A stretch of 64,000 bases of DNA from Rhodocollybia butyracea (Eukaryota; Basidiomycota; Agaricomycetes; Agaricales; Omphalotaceae), in NCBI GenBank assembly GCA_015501585.1, contig JADNRY010000084.1, forward strand, positions 62,001-126,000, in the 5' to 3' direction. The position numbers and the translations under genes were made by a program. Positions within the stretch are counted from its first letter, which is position 1, and every line of letters starts with the position of its first letter. Positions 46,890-60,220 of the stretch are shown piece by piece. The notes under the pieces were generated by a model. It made no database searches and was not told the origin of the DNA. It worked only from the letters and a program-made list of their open reading frames with translations.

Positions 46890-47659
46890 ATGGCTAGTAA
46901 CGGAGCAATACTGCCCCCGCTACCTGATATTCCTGAAGACCAAAAATTCGACGGGATACGACTAGCTTGGGCACCGATTGAAAGAAAAATCCAAGTTGCA
47001 TTGAAAGGTCAGGGCTAATTGGATACGTAGATGGAACCATTAGTATCCCCCCATTGTCCAACTACCACTGAATGCTCCTGGTACAACCGTTACACCGACC
47101 CCGGTATACTCCACGAACCCATCCAGGGATGAATGGACGTTTCGGAATGACTGGGCAAGAGGTATGATTGAGGGGTATGTTCTTGACTTGCCATCTCTTG
47201 TCCCTACCGTTGACAAGATGAACGTGTACAAGGTTTTTGAAGCCTTGAAGAACGAATTCAGGAAGTCGGATGAGATGAAGAAGATCCTCTTGGATTGTCG
47301 CCTCAGAAGCCATGTCTTCCGTGATCATGAACCTATTGATACCTTCTTCAAGACTTTGAGAGAATTGAGAAGGGAAGCGATAGAGGGAGGAAACGATGTA
47401 TTGGACAAAGTTTTCAAGGCTGTTATCTTGGCAGCTTTCCCTACTCTACCCTTTGACACCATTATCCAGAACATCACAGCGAATCCGACTGCTTATCCTA
47501 CATCGGCGTCAGTGATACAGCAAATCGTCTTTCAGTATTCTTGTACTGAGACACGTCCTGATGCTGCCGTGTCAGGGGATAGGCTCCCGCAGGCAAACAT
47601 TGCTCTTCAAGCTCGAATTGAGCATCTTGAATGCCAGCTTGCTGCGGTTACGATCGGAG
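46890..47659 (+). pseudogene. Copia gag, N-terminal part, frameshifted
   Basis: Starts MASNGAILPPLPDIPEDQKFDG and has the gag layout (PIERKIQVALKGQG, then GYVDGTISIP in another frame). After a stop-containing region, the long frame SRDEWTFRNDWARGMIEGYV runs on. It continues as the UBN2/gag helical domain (TFFKTLRELRREAIEGG) to VTIG, where the minus-strand element is inserted. At least one single-base shift near 47015 and further breaks before 47110 disable it. Confidence 0.85.
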
Positions 47660-47912
47660 TATAATGCGCCCTATGGGCAAAGTCCTTAAGAACACCGGTG
47701 AACACGACAAATAGGATACTATTGTGTGTACGACGGTGTAAAAGACTGACTAGACTCTTAAGTAATCGTACGATACTTATAGTAACGGATTTATTATATA
47801 ATTAATAATAAATAGAATGATAAGATAGACCGTTTGGTCTATCGGCGGCGTCTAGGATGACCGTATCGCCGGATACGGTCAGTGGTGATTATGGAGAGGC
47901 GGAGGCGTTACA
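47660..47912 (-). repeat. 3' LTR of the gag-only element
   Basis: This 253-bp copy is nearly identical to the right LTR and is uninterrupted. It contains two strong hairpins, at 47824-47843 (8-bp stem) and 47859-47880 (9-bp stem). Confidence 0.9.
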
Positions 47913-48252
47913 CCCTCCCCCACCAGATTAACATCAGGGATGTGAATCGAAAATGGTAATGACATCATCACCATCCAAACCATTTTTAATTTGGTTTAAC
48001 ATAGAATGATCCCGTATCAAGTACGGGATTAATTGATGCGGCGCATCAGATTTTCGGACTTGTCCGAATCAAACGATAGTGGGGTGGACCACTAGAGCAT
48101 GATTTGATTCGGAAATGTCTGAATGTTCAATGCGCAGACTCGGAAGTTTCCGAGTATTGCTTAATGAGGATTCTCAGTGAGAATCCGGGCTGAGGATAAG
48201 TAGTTATGCCCAGGTAAGGCATATTACCTGGGCGTTGGAATAAACCAATAAA

Positions 48253-50595
48253 TCATTCGGAAGGTTTATCCTTTCCGATACTTAAGGAGGTGTCCTCCTC
48301 GATTGGCTCAAGAACATTTTTAATGTTCTCGGTGTCCGACTCATCGGGGTGTTCTGATGATTCAAGTTCATCGTCTCTATTCCTAGAAGAGACATAATAT
48401 TTAGTGAGGGCCGTGTGGTCCTCAATGCATGTGACGGCTCTGACCATCACTTCTAATTTGGCATACTCCGGAATGATCCCCTCGTTCGTGAGTTGCCTGA
48501 TAATATTGAAGGGTAATCCCTCAATGAACCGTTTCCGCATTGTTGCATCATCCGGTGTTTGGAGCATCCGTGATGCCCATCGTGTAAGTGAGGAATAATA
48601 ATCCCTCACACCCGTATCGGGTGAATACTCAATAAGGTCAAAATGCCGTGCAGCTTGATGAATGGTCGTTGCTTGGATGCAACGATCAAAGACACCAATG
48701 ATGGCGCCTTCAAATGTCCACTTAAGGACAGTGCAGTGTATACCAGCGACTTTGTCATTATACCAGTCAAGGGCTTTGCCCTGTAGAAACATGCCAAGCA
48801 TGGCAGTCCATGTAGCATCGTAATCGTCACCGCACATGCGGTTGACTACCATCCATTGGAGAAGTGACATTAGCCACCGCTCGAAGACATCGACATCCGG
48901 AGATCCATCATAGACCTCCGGAGATGGAACTTTAAGAGCTTTACGGCTCTCAATGGGAGGGATAGGATTCCCTACCTTATCTCGAATTTGTTTACGGTAC
49001 ACTTTGTGTACCTTGTGTTTCCATCGGGAACGACGTTCGTCATCACCTGTTGTTTCTCGCATCTTAGATGCAAGTGAGCGCAGTAATTTACGCTGCTCAT
49101 TTTTAGTAATTTTACCCTTGCGGGTAGCAAATTTGTCTAGCCAAGAGGCATTAGACAATGAGTCAGTATTTGACTCAGTGTCACTTGGGTCCGATGATTC
49201 ATCTGACGATGGGCTGCGTTTGCGGCCTTTGGATTTAGCACTCTTGTGCTTCCTCCCCCCTTCACAGGATTTTTTGCTAGGCGCTTTCGCTCCGGCATTA
49301 TTGCTTGGTCCTGGAAAGGACTCAGCGGGTGGAATGTAAAATCGATCCCAGATTTCTCTGGGAGTAGTCAATTTGTCAACGGGTATTCTGTCGACATTAT
49401 ATCCCACCATTTGGTCGGGAAGCCCAGATGGCGCGAATCCAAAATCTCAGAGACTGGTGTTATGTTGGCGTTGAATCGCTATGCGACTCATCCAATCTTT
49501 AGCTACTCCCAACGGAAGCGGCTGTGGTTGCAACTCGGCCAATACTGTTGGTACTGGCATTGAACTTGGCTCTGGCGCATTGCTGGACGGCAATTTGGGC
49601 AGTCTTACGGTAGTGTGTACTACCGGAGGGGCAACACTTTGTGTCGCCGGGGCAATGGATATGGTAGTAGGAACTACCGGAAGGGTACCGTGTTGCGGTC
49701 CCATACTGGAGTGATCTCCAGTAGTGTTTCGGTACAACTACTGGAGGTGTAATAATAATATTGGGTACCACTGGCGCCCTTGCAGTAGGTAAGTACATTG
49801 TACTTTCCTGTGGTGGTATCGCTACTACCTGATTGAAGTTACGAGGTAACTTCGGTTCATTGTTGATGTTCACCACACTTTGCGGTGAGTGGGATTTGGT
49901 CATAGGTAATGGCCTGGGACCTCGCAGTGTCTGAGACGCTGCCTCCGCATTGGGACTCTGTCTCATGCGGGATGTGTTGATGGGTGTCAGTGTAGTTACT
50001 GACACTGGTGCGTATTCCTGTCAAAATACAGGAACATGACGGAGTGACTTGGTCATCCCTTGTGAATACTGTTCGTCCAACAGTGATTGTTGGACTGACG
50101 GTGCCTTGGGCACAGTCTCACGCCATTGGCGTACCGAGTTGTTTGTCTCGGTATGAATATATGGTGTTGCGTTGTGCAATACCGGTGGTGTGACAGCAGG
50201 CCGTCTCGGTGTGGGTGCAGCAATAGTGATTCTATTGCTGTTTCTCGATGAAGAAGATCTTCATTAGATCGGATGCTAGATGCATCCCATTTCTCAGTTA
50301 TATTGAGAATACGATTGAGTACTTGCGTTCTCTTGTCGAGTGATGCCGCTACATCTCGTAGCGCAGAAGAAATCTCACTTAAACCCTCTCGGGTTGGCCG
50401 TTTCTTACAAATAGTCATAGACTGTTCATTAGGTGGACTCTTGTCCTGCCTGTAGTGCTGTCTTTCAGACACACGTACGGAATGAGTCGCTGATGCGACT
50501 GAATAGATTGAGTGTGGTGACACGTCACCACGAATGGAAGGTGCGCGATCGTGCACACTCTGATATGACTTCTCTGATTGATTTCGAGAGGTCAT
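48253..50595 (-). pseudogene. Retrotransposon gag of the hairpin-dense element, frameshifted
   Basis: Minus strand. The N-terminal part is at 50595-50053 (MTSRNQSEKSYQSVH...). A Pro/Thr/Val-rich middle in other frames lies at 50005-49447. A long intact frame at 49410-48253 encodes 385 residues. The last part has SPEVYDGSPDVDVFERWLMS and FLQGKALDWYNDKVAG, matching the gypsy-type retrotransposon gag domain, then LTRWASRMLQTPDDATMRKRF. No CCHC knuckle or polymerase is seen. Whether the frame changes are mutations or programmed shifts is not known. Confidence 0.75.
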
Positions 50596-50765
50596 GGGGA
50601 CAGCAAATGATATAGCGAGAAGGAAAAATGGAGCGGATTTGTATAGCTTGTTGAAGCGAGTTGGAATAGTGATTGTTATACTTGGTAGTATAACTGTTTT
50701 TAGCTTGTTTTAACTAATAGCTTTGTGTTATTCACACAATAGTAATTTTTTGATGTTCAAAAAAG

Positions 50766-51008
50766 TATAACGCGCCTTATGGGCAAAGTCCTTAAGAACA
50801 CCGGTGAACACGACAAATAGGATACTATTGTGTGTACGACGGTGTAAAAGACTGACTAGACTCTTAAGTAATCGTACGATACTTATAGTAACGGATTTAT
50901 TATATAATTAATAATAAATAGAATGATAAGATAGACCGTTTGGTCTATCGGCGGCGTCTAGGATGACCGTATCGCCGGATACAGTCAGTGGTGATTATGG
51001 AGAGGCGG
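50766..51008 (-). repeat. 5' LTR of the gag-only element, split by a solo LTR
   Basis: 243 bases match the left LTR. The remaining 10 bases (AGGCGTTACA) resume at 51858-51867, after the inserted solo LTR. The second hairpin seen in the other LTR has one mismatch here (GATACAGTC). Confidence 0.9.
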
Positions 51009-51852
51009 TGTCATGCCCTAGGCATATATCGACTGCCGACGTTTCCCGCTTACAGTTACATAATCCGCTCCCACCGCATTTCCGGTTCTGATACACTTCC
51101 GCTTTGCTTCTGTCTTACTATTTCCTTCACCGTACACTTTCTATGATCCCGCCGATCCATTCTCCATCATTCTTACAATCATACATATGCTTTATGCTCA
51201 TCCTGCCGCTTCCGCTTATGTCCATCATTGTCTTTCATCCCTTGTACTTCTTTTGGCTATTCTTGTCTTTTCTACTCTTGGATTATTACCTATCGCTACT
51301 CCGGTCCTCGAGTACCCTTTAAATAGTTCCATACCATGTCAAGTACAGTAGATTGGAAATATTGCTTAACCCCTTGACTCGTGTGCTCTTGTGTGTTCCA
51401 GTTTCTCACTTTATCTGTTTCTTTAACTCTGTTTCTTCACTCCATTGTTTTCACAACCTCTGCAATTTACTATCATCTATTTGGTTCCGCTCTGTTTGCG
51501 CCGCATCAGGTCAGCTACCGCTTGACCTTCCGCTTCCGCTCATATCGCTATCAAAGCCGCTTGCACTTAGTGGGTCCTACCCTTTGAGTCGGAAACTCAT
51601 CTACTCTTAGGCTTACTCGCCGAGTTCATTCTATCGCCTGTACAGACCTGCCGTCCCTACATTAGTCCCTTGGACGATCCCAACACGAGTCTTACATCCC
51701 ATAGGCACTTCGGAACCGTTCTACACTCACATCCTTTCACATCTCAAACCAACTTTCCCAGTTCGGCTGAACGACAGAAGTACGGAGCGTATCCGCACTT
51801 TGGTTTCCAGGTTTGTAACCTGCGCTCAAAGGATTCTGCCTAGATCCTTACA
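51009..51852 (+). mobile_element. Solo LTR with 5-bp target duplication
   Basis: 844 bp beginning TGTCATGCC and ending CCTTACA (TG...CA). It is flanked by GGCGG at 51004-51008 and 51853-51857. Removing it and one GGCGG gives a right LTR that matches the left one exactly in this part. It is pyrimidine-rich and non-coding, and no internal retrotransposon genes accompany it, so it is a recombination remnant. Its family is not determined; gypsy-like is a guess. Confidence 0.88.
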
Positions 51853-51872
51853 GGCGGAGGCGTTACACGGAG

Positions 51873-53068: not shown

Positions 53069-55530
53069 ACTAGGGGAATAAAAGTACCCCCTTTCTGAGG
53101 TGCGTATTACCTTGACTAGGGGGACTAAAAATATCCCCTTTCTGAGGTGTGTATTACCTTGACTGGGGGGAATAAAAATACCCCCTTTCTGAGGTGCGTA
53201 TTACCTTGACTGGGGGGAATAAAAATACCCCCTTTCTGAGATGTGTATTACCTTGACTGGGGGGAATAAAAATACCCCCTTTCTGAGGTGCGTATTACCT
53301 TGACTAGGGGGAATAAAAATACCCCCTTTCTGGGGTGCGTATTACCTTGACTAGGGGGAATAAAAATACCCCCTTTCTGAGGTGTGTATTACCTTGACTA
53401 GGGGGAATAAAAATACCCCCTTTCTGAGGTGCGTATTACCTTGACTAGGGGGAATAAAAATACCCCCTTTCTGAGGTGCGTATTACCTTGACTAGGGGGA
53501 ATAAAAATACCCCCTTTCTGAGGTGTGTATTACCTTGACTAGGGGGAATAAAAATACCCCCTTTCTGGGTGCATATTACCTTGACTAGGGGGAATAAAAA
53601 TACCGCCTTTCTGAGGTGCGTATTACCTTGACTAGGGGGAATAAAAATACCCCCTTTCTGGGTGCGTATTACCTTGACTAGGGGGAATAAAAATACCCCC
53701 TTTCTGGGGTGCATATTACCTTGACTAGGGAGAATAAAAATACCGCCTTTCTGAGGTGCGTATTACCTTGACTAGGGGGAATAAAAATACCCCCTTTCTG
53801 AGGTGTGTATTACCTTTCTGGGGTGCATATTACCTTGACTAGGGGGAATAAAAATACCCCCTTTCTGAGGTGCGTATTACCTTGACTAGGGGAATAAAAA
53901 TACCCCCTTTCTGGGGTGCGTATTACCTTGACTAGGGGGAATAAAAATACCCCCTTTCTGGGGTGCATATTACCTTGACTAGGGAGAATAAAAATACCGC
54001 CTTTCTGAGGTGCGTATTACCTTGACTAGGGGGAATAAAAATACCCCCTTTCTGAGGTGTGTATTACCTTGACTAGGGGGAATAAAAATACCCCCTTTCT
54101 GGGGTGCATATTACCTTGACTAGGGTGAATAAAAATACCCCCTTTCTGGGGTGCATATTACCTTGACTAGGGGAATAAAAATACTCCCTTTCTGAGATGC
54201 ATATTACCTTGACTAGGGTGAATAAAAATACCGCCTTTCTGGGGTGCGTATTACCTTGACTAGGGGAATAAAAATACCGCCTTTCTGAGGTGCGTATTAC
54301 CTTGACTAGGGGGAATAAAAATACCCCCTTTCTGGGGTGCATATTACCTTGACTAGGGAGAATAAAAATACCGCCTTTCTGAGGTGCGTATTACCTTGAC
54401 TAGGGGGAATAAAAATACCCCCTTTCTGAGGTGTGTATTACCTTTCTGGGGTGCATATTACCTTGACTAGGGGAATAAAAATACCCCCTTTCTGAGGTGC
54501 GTATTACCTTGACTAGGGGGAATAAAAATACCCCCTTTCTGGGGTGCGTATTACCTTGACTAGGGGGAATAAAAATACCCCCTTTCTGGGGTGCATATTA
54601 CCTTGACTAGGGAGAATAAAAATACCGCCTTTCTGAGGTGTGTATTACCTTGACTAGGGGGAATAAAAATACCCCCTTTCTGAGGTGTGTATTACCTTGA
54701 CTAGGGGGAATAAAAATACCCCCTTTCTGGGTGCATATTACCTTGACTAGGGTGAATAAAAATACCCCCTTTCTGGGTGCATATTACCTTGACTAGGGGG
54801 AATAAAAATACTCCCTTTCTGAGATGCATATTACCTTGACTAGGGTGAATAAAAATACCGCCTTTCTGGGTGCATATTACCTTGACTAGGGGGAATAAAA
54901 ATACCGCCTTTCTGAGGTGCGTATTACCTTGACTAGGGGGAATAAAAATACCCCCTTTCTGGGGTGCGTATTACCTTGACTAGGGGAATAAAAATACCCC
55001 CTTTCTGGGGTGCATATTACCTTGACTAGGGAGAATAAAAATACCCCTTTCTGAGGTGCGTATTACCTTGACTAGGGGGAATAAAAAATACCCCCTTTCT
55101 GAGGTGTGTATTACCTTGACTAGGGGAATAAAAATACCCCCTTTCTGGGGTGCATATTACCTTGACTAGGGTGAATAAAAATACCCCCTTTCTGGGGTGC
55201 ATATTACCTTGACTAGGGGAATAAAAATACCGCCTTTCTGAGGTGCGTATTACCTTGACTAGGGGGAATAAAAATACTCCCTTTCTGAGATGCATATTAC
55301 CTTGACTAGGGTGAATAAAAATACCGCCTTTCTGGGGTGCGTATTACCTTGACTAGGGGGAATAAAAATACCGCCTTTCTGGGGTGCGTATTACCTTGAC
55401 TAGGAGGAATAAAAATACCCCCTTTCTGAGGTGCGTATTACCTTGACTAGAGGGAATAAAAATATCCCCTTTCTGAGGTGCATATTACCTTGACTAGGGG
55501 GAATAAAAATATCCTCTTTCTGAGGTGTGT
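53069..55530. repeat. Left subterminal array, about 50 copies of an approximately 47-bp unit
   Basis: Unit core: TTACCTTGACTAGGGGGAATA, then AAAATACCCCCTTTCTGAGG and TGCGTA. Copies vary at a few positions (CCCCC/CCGCC, GAGGTG/GGGGTG). Some are one base shorter, and double-unit variants indicate expansion by unequal exchange. Within each unit GGGGG and CCCCC could pair. Coding is unlikely, though the repeat leaves minus-strand frames with repeated peptide. Confidence 0.95.
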
Positions 55531-55637
55531 ATTACCTTGTCCAGGATATTTTATTTAGGCATAGAAATTACATATTACCCAAGCCTTTGACCATACATAG
55601 TATTGGTTTCAGATGGGTGCAATGATATCTTCCACCA
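55531..55637. other. Spacer between left array and transposase
   Basis: A short unique stretch before the end of the transposase gene. No feature is recognised. Confidence 0.4.
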
Positions 55638-58600
55638 TCATATCACTTCCATGTCTGCAGCAAGCTCCTCATCTTCTTCATATCTTTTTCCTATATCTAA
55701 CACATCTTCTAGCAGTGCCCCCAGGTTGGAAATATCTGGTCTCACCCCCTTTGCATGTTCCACAAGATAATCCCATCTTGCACTTACAAGTTCAGCACGC
55801 TTCTCCTCAAAAAATGCATGTTGTAATGCATAAGCTGTCATTCCCTCCTGAAGCTCCTTTGATATTCCTTCCCGCTGTCCAATCTGATCTCTCCACCACC
55901 TTGCTTTCCAGAGTGAGAATTCTCTCATCCACCAAATTTCTTCACAAAGGAGTAGTACTTCTTCTTTCCATCGAAGTGACCGTGCACGTGCCTTGCACCA
56001 CTCAACACGTAATGCTAACACAGTATCAGAGCAATTATTTTTATAGTTATTAAGGATGTCACATACCATCTTGAAATTCAGGGTCCTCTGGGTCAGTTGA
56101 TGTGTCATACCAGATCCATGACAAAGTATGTTTTCCTGTGTCCCCAGCCACCACAGCAACTCCTGGTGAAGCAAAACCGGCACCCTGAAGCTCATTTAAT
56201 AACCCTCTCTCACAAAGTAATTCTTCTTGTGCCAGTTCTTCTGCATTTAATGCTTGCTCATTCAATCCACGGACATCACCATCTTTCAGTATCTGCAGTT
56301 TTTTCTCCCAATCACCATGGCCCCATAAACAAAACAGTGCATTCCGGGCATACCTGTACTGTATTTTGTTTGAGTTAATGCCCAGATCAATGTGTTGTAA
56401 CACCCCTTGAGCTCGAGTGTTATGTCTCTGACCTGTTATGTTCTTCAGCTTGAGATTGTTGGTAAGGGTATGGGCTCGTAACCCTTGTTGCACAGTGTTC
56501 AGTGCATCTATAGCTTCACCATGTCGCAATTGACTTTCCTGCTCCCAAATTTTTCCAGCACATGCTGCGTTGCGTACACTATTGTTATCAAGCTCTGATG
56601 GCATAAAGAGCTTGATTTTCTCGGGCATATTGGTATCGGGGTCATCCAAATGGGATCGCTGGGCAGTACTCAGGAAATCCCATAAGTGTGGCATAAATGT
56701 TCCCTGAAGTGAACGGAATTGTTGAATATGTCGCAAGATAAGTGATCTTTGCCTCTGAATAGCAAGTGTTTGGGTTGGAGTAAGGGGTGAATTGATCTTC
56801 AGTTCTACTTCAATTTGCCGTTGCCGCTGCTCAATGTCAATACCTAGCACCAGAAACACTGTGGCACTAGAGGTATGGACCATGGTACCCTGCACCATTG
56901 CCTCATGTTCTTCCTTGGCCAACTGAATCTCAACCTTCTTGAGTGAATTTTGATCTAGTAGTGGCAAGTAAAATTTCATATCATTGAAGCTATAAAAAAT
57001 ACAGCATACCTTCATTTGATGTCTCATAGGGGCATGGTTTTTGATGGTCTTTTTCCCAATCTTCTACTAGAAATTGCCATTTTTGTAGCACATCCTTCCC
57101 AACATTCATTTCTAGACCTTCACAAAACCTATCATAGCCCTGACTCTGCTCCTTTGCCTGATGAAGTGCTGTTAGAAGCCGTTGCCCCAACAACTTGTCC
57201 AGGTTTTGGAGTAGGCGGTAATTATGATGCCCAAAGATATCATTCAAGGTAACTGCACGATTACCAGGTCCCATTTCTTTAGTCTAGCTAGCAGCTTTGT
57301 TTGAAACTGCCTGGTTTTCTTCAATCACTTCTCCATGAGTTTCACTGCAACCTGGGGTAAAGTGGAAGGAGAAGGGAGCCTGGCAGCTAGGCAGATGAAC
57401 TGGAAGGTGGAATTTTGGAACAAGAAATATAAGATTGTCTTCAGTGATGCAAAAATCAATCTTGTCCTTGAGTTCCTCAAGCCGTACCCAGAATTTCTGT
57501 CCCCACTGGCAGGCAATATCATATGAGAGTATAATCATGCAATCAAGCCCTTTGACAGCTTGAGCAAATATGTAGTCCATGTTGCAATATCTACCAAAAG
57601 AAATTGAACATTTACCTTACATCAATTGTTGAGGTAATGGATTCATACCGTTCACCTTTCTGAAGGTCTCCCATTCTGTTTGGAAGCCAAAAACCATGCC
57701 GTCCGCAACAACAGCCTCCTACTCCCGTTGTTCGAAGGCCTTTGATATTTTTCAAGTTGGCAAGAAATATTGCAGCAAAGCCAGAGCATGAACTGATCTA
57801 TGAAAAATATGAATATTCCTTTGATCTCAAAACAACATTCCCTCACCTCCGCCTGGTCCACAAACCTCTTTACCCAGTCAATGTAGTCATTGTAGGGAAC
57901 AAAATATGCAAACCCATCTCCCAAAGTAGGGTTTCTAGACTGGTAGGGTTTGAAGGTCCAATTCAATGGACTGCAAAAAACTGATGAATTGCACTGAACT
58001 GAACTGCAAAATGAACTGATGATGGATGGACCGGTCCATGATTTAAACCTGGTCCAGTTCATGGTTCATCAAAATCTCAGAAAAAAAGTGAACCACAAAG
58101 AATCAGTTTAAACCGGTCTAAACTGGTACAGCCACATAGCAAAAATAATTTAGATAAATGAGTATATTTTCTCCAATTTTGATCAATAAAATTTATATTT
58201 TCTAATGGTCTCAAGCAATAAGCTAATACAAAACTGGAAAGACTACTCATAACCTATTGAACAGTACCATGCAACAAGTCTGAGAGCCTGACATGATACA
58301 ATACACTATCCATGGTCTGTTTTAACAGATGACCAATGACTGCCAAACCTGGAAAGCATTTCTGCATGGTAAAAGAGCAGTGTAAGGCAGCCTAGAGCAT
58401 ATATTGAATGTTTTATTGTTTTTATATTGTTTTATATTGTTTTATAGTAGTTTCTTACATGGTCTCACTTGTTACATATCTGAATATCTTTCATGCATGT
58501 GCAGTTTAAATCAGTTTAAACCGGTCTGCACCAGTTTAAATTTGCACTGATTTAAACTGCATGAACCAGGATGAATTGGACCAGTGGACCAGTGGAATCA

Positions 58601-58941
58601 GTGCAGGTTCATGGTTCATACAGATTTAGGTTTTTTATGGACTGGTCCAATTCATGATTCATTGAATTTTTGGTAAATAAACTGAATTGGATTGAACCTT
58701 CAAACCCTATAGACTGGGATGAAACAAGTTTGTTTCGAAGCCGGAAGTTTGCATCTAGAGCCACAAATCTTTGGAACAGATATCTGGAATTTACCTTTAG
58801 TAGTAAACTGATTATCCAGACGGAAACATACTGAAAATCAGCTGGCCAGTGACGCCAATCTGTAGGAAGGTTTCGGTCCGGTTGAGGACAGGCTGGGCAC
58901 CTAAGCTTGGCGTGAAGAGTGGTGGGCATATTGGCATTCAA
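55638..58941 (-). pseudogene. KDZ (Kyakuja-Dileera-Zisupton) transposase, interrupted
   Basis: Minus-strand exons join in frame. Landmarks in order: LRCPACPQPDRNLP; FVALDANFRLRNKLVSSQS (then a MITE); RNPTLGDGFAYFV; VDQAEISSCSGFAAIFLANLK; TTGVGG; GFWLPNRMGDLQKGERY; RYCNMDYIFAQAVKG; SYDIACQWGQKFW; LVPKFHLPVHLPSCQ. After one in-frame TAG at 57284-57286 come EMGPGNRAVTLNDIFGHHNY and YETSNEDQNSLKKVEIQLAKEE. The C-terminal ALRVEWCKARARSLRWKEEVLLL ends at the TGA at 55638. These are core signatures of the family, common in basidiomycetes. The expected N-terminal Cys-cluster region is not seen upstream. The gene is disabled by that stop and the MITE. Confidence 0.88.
57944..58709. mobile_element. MITE, hAT-like, inserted in the KDZ transposase exon
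   Basis: 766 bp with terminal inverted repeats TAGGGTTTGAAGGT..CAAT and an exact 8-bp target duplication TAGACTGG (57936-57943 and 58710-58717). The interior is AT-rich with many variants of CAGTTTAAACCGGTC and no coding. TAGGG termini and 8-bp duplications suit the hAT superfamily, but other superfamilies remain possible. Removing it with one TSD restores the transposase frame. Confidence 0.88.
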
Positions 58942-59412: not shown

Positions 59413-60220
59413 CACTGAAAAGGGGATATTTTTATTCCCCCTAGTCAAGGTAATACACACCCCAGAAAGGGGGTATTTTTATTCCCCTCAGTCAAGGTAA
59501 TATGCACATCAGAAAGAGGGTATTTTTATTCCCCCTAGTTGAGGTAATATGCACCTCAGAAAGGGGATATTGTTATTCCCCCTAGTGGAGGTAACATTTT
59601 TATTCCCCTCAGTCAAGGTAATACGCACCTCAGAAAGGGGGTATTTTTATTCCCCCCAGTCAAGGTAATACGCACCTCAGAAAGGGGATATTGTTATTCC
59701 CCTCAGTCAAGGTAATACGCACATCAGAAAGAGGGTATTTTTATTCCCCCTAGTTGAGGTAATACGCACCTCAGAAAGGGGATATTGTTATTCCCCCTAG
59801 TGAAGGTAACACACCTCAGAAAGGGGATATTTTTATTCCCCCTAGTCAAGGTAATACACACCTCAGAAAGGGGGTATTTTTATTTCCCCTAGTCAAGGTA
59901 ATACGCACCTCAGAAAGGGGGTATTTTTATTCCCCCTAGTCAAGGTAATACGGACCTCAGAAAGGGGGTATTTTTATTCCCCCTAGTCGAGGTAATACGC
60001 ACCTCAGAAAGGGGGTATTTTTATTCCCCCTAGTTGAGGTAATACGCACTTCAGAAAGGCGGTATTTTTATTCCCCCTAGTCAAGGTAATACGCACCTCA
60101 GAAAGGGCATATTTTTATTCCCCCTAGTCAAGGTAATACGCACCTCAGAAAGGGGGTATTTTTATTCCCCCTAGTCAAGGTAATACACACCTCAGAAAGG
60201 GGGTATTTTTATTCCCCCAG
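59413..60220. repeat. Right subterminal array, about 17 copies, inverted relative to the left
   Basis: Unit core: AATACGCACCTCAGAAAGGG, then GGTATTTTTATTCCCCC and TAGTCAAGGT, the reverse complement of the left-array unit. The copies are more diverged than on the left (TTGAGG, GTGGAGG and GATATTG variants). Confidence 0.95.

Follow-up and report, generated by a model that had tools for sequence, protein, structure and literature searches.

Small RNA viruses carry dispersed packaging signals, with many stem-loops set along the genome. In the genome-scale ordered RNA structure of viruses, coding and noncoding parts alike fold more strongly than the same sequence with its order shuffled, and the account in PMC3950689 gives duplexes that never exceed 11 bp, most of them exceeding 8 bp. 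The folding excess over shuffles (MFED) in the virus panel of that source spanned -3.6 to 16.0% (UNAFold), 3% being the threshold, and a second range given for viruses reached 17.8% (PMC8195396). For the yeast elements Ty1 and Ty3, probing is reported to show stable structured regions amounting to at most 30% of the RNA (PMC11381356). Here we analyzed a 64,000-nucleotide stretch of the fungus Rhodocollybia butyracea (assembly GCA_015501585.1, contig JADNRY010000084.1, positions 62,001 to 126,000; the whole stretch is called the window below). It holds a 4.2-kb long terminal repeat (LTR) retrotransposon at 47660-51867, with its genes and sense strand on the minus strand, in which one short perfect hairpin is found per ~75 bases. 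The family of this element is referred to as family A; a sister family in the same genome, family B, has the same density in the copy examined.

As in the viruses, folding of families A and B exceeds that of order-shuffled sequence across coding and noncoding parts, and duplex length is limited: stems reach at most 10 bp and are mostly of 6-8 bp, to be compared with the viral lengths given in PMC3950689. They differ in that MFED is ~41%, against highest values of 16.0% and 17.8% for the viral ranges of these two sources (the PMC3950689 panel having been folded with UNAFold and our sequences with ViennaRNA), and in that the two families are retrotransposons and not RNA viruses, family A having LTRs, a target duplication and many chromosomal copies. 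Family A shares LTRs, a 5-bp target duplication and Gag with Ty3/gypsy-type and TR-GAG-like elements, and in family B Gag is followed by a putative zinc knuckle and protease region and by reverse transcriptase (RT), whereas the hairpin chain sets both apart from such elements. In contrast to dispersed packaging signals, no shared loop motif was noticed beyond A-richness, no systematic motif search having been made. A literature search found no LTR retrotransposon described with such a hairpin chain. A preliminary description of the window, made from the sequence alone, had known of no family with this trait; this holds for LTR elements in our literature search, but not beyond them, since RNA viruses have a related trait, genome-scale ordered RNA structure. 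What appears to be new is the presence and the strength of such order in this retrotransposon.

Hairpin density

Hairpins were defined as perfect Watson-Crick stems of at least 6 bp with a loop of 2-8 nt, counted without overlap. The family A sequence at 47660-51008 (3349 nt) contained 39 of them, 27 with stems of at least 7 bp and 18 of at least 8 bp, compared with 4.7 ± 2.0, 1.2 and 0.26 in 200 dinucleotide shuffles of the same sequence (maxima 11, 5 and 2). The 780-codon gag frame of another family A copy (L015) held 27 hairpins versus 4.3 in codon-preserving shuffles (maximum 9 in 200). All 54 near-full family A copies were similarly dense, with 31-43 hairpins each, and the family B copy (4001 nt) had 43, against 4.4 in 100 dinucleotide shuffles (maximum 10) and, with codons preserved, 42 against 5.8 (n = 200). 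The retrotransposon had been described as packed with hairpins, and a count against dinucleotide- and codon-preserving shuffles had been proposed as a check; the excess over both null models (39 vs 4.7; 27 vs 4.3) bears this out. Chance, low complexity and codon usage were rejected as explanations on the basis of these two kinds of shuffle.

As background for density we used the remainder of the window and the flanks of the copies. The element reached 11.65 hairpins per kb, compared with 1.47 in the rest of the window (89 in 60,651 nt), 1.3 and 1.9 in the two pieces of the copia-type host into which it is inserted, and 2.65 in 50.5 kb of copy flanks, a value raised by the presence of insertions resembling miniature inverted-repeat transposable elements (MITEs). 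The lower density of the neighboring genes and of the copia host, noticed by eye beforehand, was thereby reproduced. Hairpin-dense flanks at three loci were considered as possible relatives of the element and rejected, since those of L057 and L018 consist of long self-complementary stretches and that of L078 is partly self-complementary, all with a MITE-type appearance. The MITE-like, long self-complementary insertions beside the element copies lie at 2851-3581 of L057 and 847-1185 of L018.

The stems are of 6-10 bp and the loops mostly of 3-5 nt, with 43 stem-loops in 3.1 kb of family A and 51 in 4.0 kb of family B; the longest perfect stem in these two measured sequences was 10 bp. Stems of at least 7 bp were in excess with loops of 2-12 nt (A, 11 vs 1.6 expected; B, 28 vs 2.4) and of 13-23 nt (3 vs 1.1; 7 vs 2.3) and were at chance level from 24 nt on, the excess thus being restricted to short loops. 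Regular spacing was not seen (coefficient of variation 0.85 and 0.79, compared with 0.71 and 0.73 for random placement). By inspection the stem sequences look unrelated to one another, motif analysis having been limited to loop composition, and no known RNA family was matched in Rfam (best 20.1 bits against a gathering score of 100). All 15 hairpins named in the preliminary description are present in the sequence, 14 being recovered by script and that at 49704-49723 by eye, as it overlaps the retained hairpin at 49716-49746. Three of the stems are one bp longer than given there (47858-47881, 10 bp; 49704-49723, 8 bp; 50675-50694, 8 bp).

Folding energy and strand

Folding with ViennaRNA gave an MFED of 40.9% for family A (19 fragments) and 41.9% for family B (25 fragments), using 300-nt fragments with 30 dinucleotide shuffles each and with a mean z of about -6 in both. 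Against codon shuffles (n = 20) the excess was 36.8% (A) and 40.7% (B). With 240-nt fragments it was 40.2% and 42.3%, compared with -2.6 to 7.9% in seven 3-kb controls from the window, and z was below -2 for 23 of the 24 fragments in the internal part and 3' LTR of family A and for all 32 in the gag-protease part of family B. Both families thus lie above the 3% threshold that PMC3950689 gives for genome-scale ordered RNA structure.

The excess reached 40% for the sense and 27% for the antisense strand in family A, and 42% and 32% in family B, a difference to which base composition contributes. Compared with the spacers, sense-strand loops were A-rich and G-poor in family A (p = 9e-5 and p = 5e-5) and in family B (p = 0.004 and p = 0.019). 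Taken together, the loop composition and the stronger sense folding suggest RNA as the folded molecule, and the selected molecule is likely to be the sense RNA; T-rich loops in complementary DNA (cDNA) are an equivalent reading of the A-rich sense loops.

Variation among copies

Searching the 95.6-Mb genome at the DNA level yielded at least 444 first-look candidates, of which 40 were scored, and a search with Gag yielded at least 504, with 107 scored and 110 matches returned; these counts are lower bounds. Sixty-nine copies were placed on window coordinates, 54 of them near-full, and stems were defined separately in each near-full copy. Variants seen in a single copy are presumably for the most part post-insertion mutations, and non-CpG variants present at ≥10% mark replicating lineages. 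CpG variants, which are recurrent, served as a neutral control. Transitions at CpG are the expected result of repeat methylation, and the common transitions among the 69 copies were mostly of this kind (144 of 199 transitions at ≥10%).

Non-CpG singletons were found at 103/730 stem sites and 377/2369 non-stem sites (p = 0.27), and CpG singletons at 35/730 and 113/2369 (p = 1). Shared non-CpG variants (≥10%), in contrast, were depleted about threefold in stems, affecting 9/730 sites in stems, 4/223 in loops and 81/2146 in spacers (p = 3e-4 between stems and spacers); the depletion had p < 0.05 in 12 of 12 threshold settings, and CpG variants at the same frequency did not show it at the main setting (36/730 stem vs 113/2146 spacer sites, p = 0.77). 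With the end pairs excluded, stem interiors held 2 shared non-CpG sites, whereas 3045 circular shifts of the stem mask gave a mean of 15.6 and a minimum of 4; adding four further partial copies gave 2 versus 15.5. Interior singletons numbered 75, compared with 79.8 by circular shifts. Terminal pairs resembled spacers (7/222 pair-sites versus 3/526 in the interior, p = 0.0095). The depletion was present in the 3' LTR and 3' noncoding part alone (2/205 stem vs 20/388, p = 0.01), which argues that protein constraint is not its only source, and in the N-terminal part of gag (3/343 vs 38/1004, p = 0.0055).

That shared non-CpG variants are depleted and singletons hardly so suggests that the stems are preserved during multiplication of the element and scarcely, if at all, after its arrival in the chromosome. 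This supports the view that constraint acts on the stems as nucleic acid. Other copies with stems broken no less often than their flanks had been named beforehand as evidence to the contrary; this is what we found, or nearly so, for singletons, but outside the gag core the shared non-CpG variants behaved otherwise. The tests above superseded an initial set of polymorphism tests in which the window copy defined the stems and CpG sites were pooled with the others; its signals were weak or partly ascertained (p = 0.098 for shared transitions, at 70/597 stem sites vs 348/2415; p = 0.12 for shared transversions, 8 vs 58). In a folding-energy test, shared non-CpG variants were less destabilizing than singletons when all were taken together (p = 0.03) and for nonsynonymous changes alone (p = 0.014). 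As the initial signal shrank to nonsynonymous changes, we do not count this energy comparison of individual natural variants as support.

Comparison of families A and B

A search of 5.8 billion proteins returned two relatives of residues 330-780 of the family A Gag: P0001, of 1326 aa, from Joint Genome Institute (JGI) data, and P0002, of 1160 aa, from Marasmius tenuissimus, respectively 55% and 39% identical to that region. Both align over the Gag core and then run on into a knuckle and a protease-like region. In Pfam, P0001 had sub-threshold matches to zf-CCHC (E = 0.004) and RVP_2 (E = 0.025), and P0002 gave a knuckle match only, likewise sub-threshold; the DSG may, on our reading, be the protease motif. 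The usual spacing of a zinc knuckle is CX2CX4HX4C; we read the one in P0001 (around residues 991-1007) and that in P0002 as CX2CX4HX6C. A wider, alignment-based protein search contributed just three further sequences, fragments or distant proteins that all came from JGI data, and in viral contigs no relatives of the element were confirmed.

Family B of the host genome is up to 88% identical to P0001 across the whole length of the latter. A further family, at C526 and C507, matches P0001 at 57 and 56%. Among the RVT_1 matches listed, seven family B loci were compared for the position of this domain, which lies 679 nt (as a coordinate difference) past the gag-protease end at C1230, C605, C659, C617, C837 and C1, and 485 nt past it at C532. 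Family B is therefore a candidate autonomous element of Ty3/gypsy type, with gag-protease and RT. The Gag proteins of A and B share 337 of 737 aligned codons as identical residues (46%). Hairpin and folding data for family B come from one copy, of which 4001 nt, the gag-protease part, were used.

Some hairpins in the conserved part of Gag are common to A and B. The clearest shared one is at 48666-48685, where the family B stem differs by two double (compensatory) changes, one of which would belong, as we read it, to a change of Arg codon (CGT to AGA). Among Gag core pairs changed between A and B, a Watson-Crick pair was retained in 4/18 (p = 0.037) and, in the other direction, 9/49 (p = 0.007), against 7% expected by chance, the two directions sharing hairpins. 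Third-position identity was raised in the core stems of A (23/33 vs 71/158, p = 0.012).

Proposed selection on the folded nucleic acid, and rival explanations

We favor, with somewhat better than even confidence, the explanation that the genomic RNA (or the cDNA) of a clade of LTR retrotransposons is selected to form a chain of minimal stem-loops throughout its length. The units would be stems of 6-10 bp with A-rich loops, mostly of 3-5 nt. They would be retained while the element multiplies via RNA; in chromosomal copies they would decay largely unhindered. Each stem-loop would be locally closed, weakly selected and replaceable, with selection acting on the bulk architecture. Such a chain would be compact, without long duplexes and with few long single-stranded targets, and its purpose would most likely be a compact, unbranched genome for packaging into virus-like particles, poor access for RNA silencing, or both. 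Selection for a beads-on-a-string genomic RNA had been suggested from the window alone, and agrees with the density in 54 copies and in family B and with the stem constraint.

The trait is common to the gag-only family A and the autonomous family B and is therefore probably a property of the whole clade. Family A probably depends on a partner, and the occurrence of the chain in both an autonomous and a partner-dependent element would fit packaging slightly better. We give an even chance to the broader statement that in this clade the entire genomic RNA, coding sequence included, is selected as a string of perfect stem-loops, its folding excess being over double that in the virus panels, and that a satellite element shares the architecture, perhaps for entry into particles or as a shield against silencing. 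The many comparable copies separate the fate of stems during replication from their fate afterwards, and whether structure is selected, and at which step, is a testable question in a fungus. The element also suggests that RNA structure is a strong constraint on coding sequence which ordinary comparisons of gag would miss.

Several results weigh against selection on the RNA fold. Among near-perfect stems, G-U on the sense strand was no commoner than A-C relative to shuffles (4 vs 5 in A, 7 vs 9 in L015, 5 vs 12 in B), nor was the next outer pair beyond the stems rich in G-U. The gag core showed no depletion of shared non-CpG variants (4/181 vs 27/977, p = 0.81), and its CpG variants were at 16/181 versus 49/977 sites (p = 0.052). 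The CpG control was not perfectly flat, with p < 0.05 in 2 of 12 settings (one in each direction) and 18 interior variants versus 26.0 by circular shifts. Singleton transversions were somewhat rarer in stems (41/597 vs 250/2415, p = 0.01), including their interiors (27 vs 37.3 with partial copies). The energy test was null for synonymous (1.15 vs 1.07) and for 3' noncoding variants (0.63 vs 0.58). Between the families, N-terminal Gag pairs gave 16/84 against 12.6% (p = 0.058) and 8/54 against 14.0% (p = 0.49), N-terminal third positions were without excess (A 6/21 vs 33/88, B 5/15 vs 34/94), and third-position identity was not raised in the core stems of B (17/31 vs 77/160). Only 5 of 28 family A hairpins lay within 4 nt of a family B hairpin, with 2.8 expected by chance (P = 0.14), so that many hairpins are lineage-specific. 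The evidence from family B is also that of a single incomplete copy, covering only the gag-protease part.

Alternatively, the hairpins could be a functionless mutational by-product of a reverse transcriptase that switches template within the nascent strand and so perfects palindromes. Template-switch mutations do produce perfect short inverted repeats, by a mechanism which has been described for DNA polymerases (PMC8794818, PMC8604942). Stems that are overwhelmingly perfect, with no wobble preference on the sense strand, and the many hairpins specific to A or B are what it would leave, and A-rich sense loops (T-rich in cDNA) would suit fold-back. Double Watson-Crick changes in single copies were, moreover, slightly above shuffles in the 69 copies (42 cells vs a shuffle value of 30.6, with a maximum of 40 in 200 shuffles). 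Repair in either direction should, however, often fix double changes, and none of 374 stem pairs had two Watson-Crick types at ≥10% each, which speaks against neutral palindrome-making by this route. At 7 of the 9 pairs with at least two double-change cells both single-step transition states were also present. Sixty-six clusters of multi-base differences from the window copy were compared (unpolarized, with no outgroup); the local stem was longer in 9 and shorter in 12. The common double changes and multi-base births of stems expected from template switching were thus not seen among the copies; nor would it be expected to deplete variation, except where repair invariably brought back the original base. 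The results for stem pairs, double changes and clusters favor purifying selection. The perfecting of palindromes by template switching, also raised in the preliminary description, is unsupported on a recent time scale, and we regard it as an unlikely source of the hairpins.

Selection on single-stranded cDNA or on both strands, for example for a compact minus strand in reverse transcription, would explain why a preference for G-U is absent on either strand, why stems are retained only during replication, and why loops are T-rich in cDNA; the folding excess, larger for sense RNA than for antisense (composition contributing), points the other way, and we hold this reading to be improbable. A statistical fluctuation or low-complexity effect has a negligible probability, given two families, two kinds of shuffle, and no shuffle that reached the observed count.

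Element structure and genomic setting

The window element has two LTRs and a short target duplication, as expected of an LTR retrotransposon (Table 1). Its extent had been given as 47660-50765; the real end is at 51867, the right LTR being split by an 844-bp insert. This insert, probably a solo LTR of another family, is hairpin-poor, with 1 hairpin in 51009-51854. The LTR pair of the window copy shows 3 differences in 243 nt, suggesting a fairly young insertion. The gag of the copia host was identified in the frame 47164-47664 (PF14223, E = 8e-7).

Table 1. Coordinates of the element and of individual hairpins in the window. Persistence is the number of rows, out of 55, with a stem of ≥7 bp at that place.
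Feature	Position	Strand	Stem (bp)	Persistence	Remarks
Left target-site duplication CGGAG	47655..47659	n/a			matches 51868-51872
Whole element, family A	47660..51867	-			sits within copia-type gag
3' LTR	47660..47912	-			253 bp, sense TGTAACG...ATTATA; G-rich tract precedes on sense strand
LTR hairpin	47789..47813		9	55/55	
LTR hairpin	47824..47843		8	52/55	
LTR hairpin	47858..47881		10	41/55	
Hairpin	48009..48029		8	29/55	overlapping alternative centered at ~48026 in 20/55
Hairpin	48138..48155		8	47/55	
Hairpin	48168..48186		8	49/55	
Hairpin	48208..48233		10	51/55	
gag C-terminal half	48253..49410	-			385 codons, capsid-like region
Hairpin in coding sequence	48311..48329		8	52/55	
gag-core hairpin	48666..48685		7	36/55	paired at homologous place in family B
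gag-core hairpin	48996..49012		7	52/55	same in family B except one G-U
gag-core hairpin	49159..49177		7	15/55	family B hairpin at homologous place too
gag N-terminal piece	49499..50005	-			frame broken in window copy
Hairpin	49716..49746		10		stem as in window copy; overlapped by 8-bp stem 49704-49723
Hairpin	49835..49853		8	52/55	
Hairpin	49984..50005		8	7/55	stem as in window copy
gag N-terminal piece	50053..50595	-			holds start codon of long frame of other copies
Hairpin	50075..50095		8	52/55	
Hairpin	50218..50240		9	54/55	
Hairpin	50514..50531		8	52/55	
Hairpin	50675..50694		8	54/55	
Perfect hairpin TTTTTTGA/TCAAAAAA	50746..50764		8	52/55	at 5' LTR/internal border, expected primer-binding-site spot
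5' LTR, main part	50766..51008	-			remainder 51853-51867
TG...CA insert splitting 5' LTR	51009..51852	n/a			844 bp, own 5-bp duplication GGCGG
Right target-site duplication CGGAG	51868..51872	n/a			same 5 bp as left side

The Gag of family A is a single frame of ~780 codons; several other copies have it open, and in the window copy its first half is interrupted. The 385-residue gag frame described earlier is only the C-terminal half of this protein. Its match to Retrotrans_gag had an E of only 0.073, below the cut-off, and a search of solved structures gave no match better than E = 0.9. Family A Gag stops before the zinc knuckle and protease region, and the long frame of L015 had no knuckle, protease or RT match in Pfam; its LTRs thus enclose gag only, as in non-autonomous, TR-GAG-like elements. 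No TGG follows the 5' LTR directly (50740-50766), and hence no TGG-type primer-binding site was found there; no long self-priming complement was found for family A, the best being 9 nt.

Other repeats in the window

Arrays of a 47-bp tandem repeat lie in opposite orientations at 53069-55539 and 59419-60000 (the scan ended at 60000), and the ~4 kb between them holds a minus-strand frame at 56062-57063. The two arrays may form the repetitive termini of a large DNA transposon. Between them, at 58026-58736, there is a cluster of short hairpins, several with a GTTTAAAC-like stem; unlike the stems of the retrotransposon, the stems of this cluster are related to one another.

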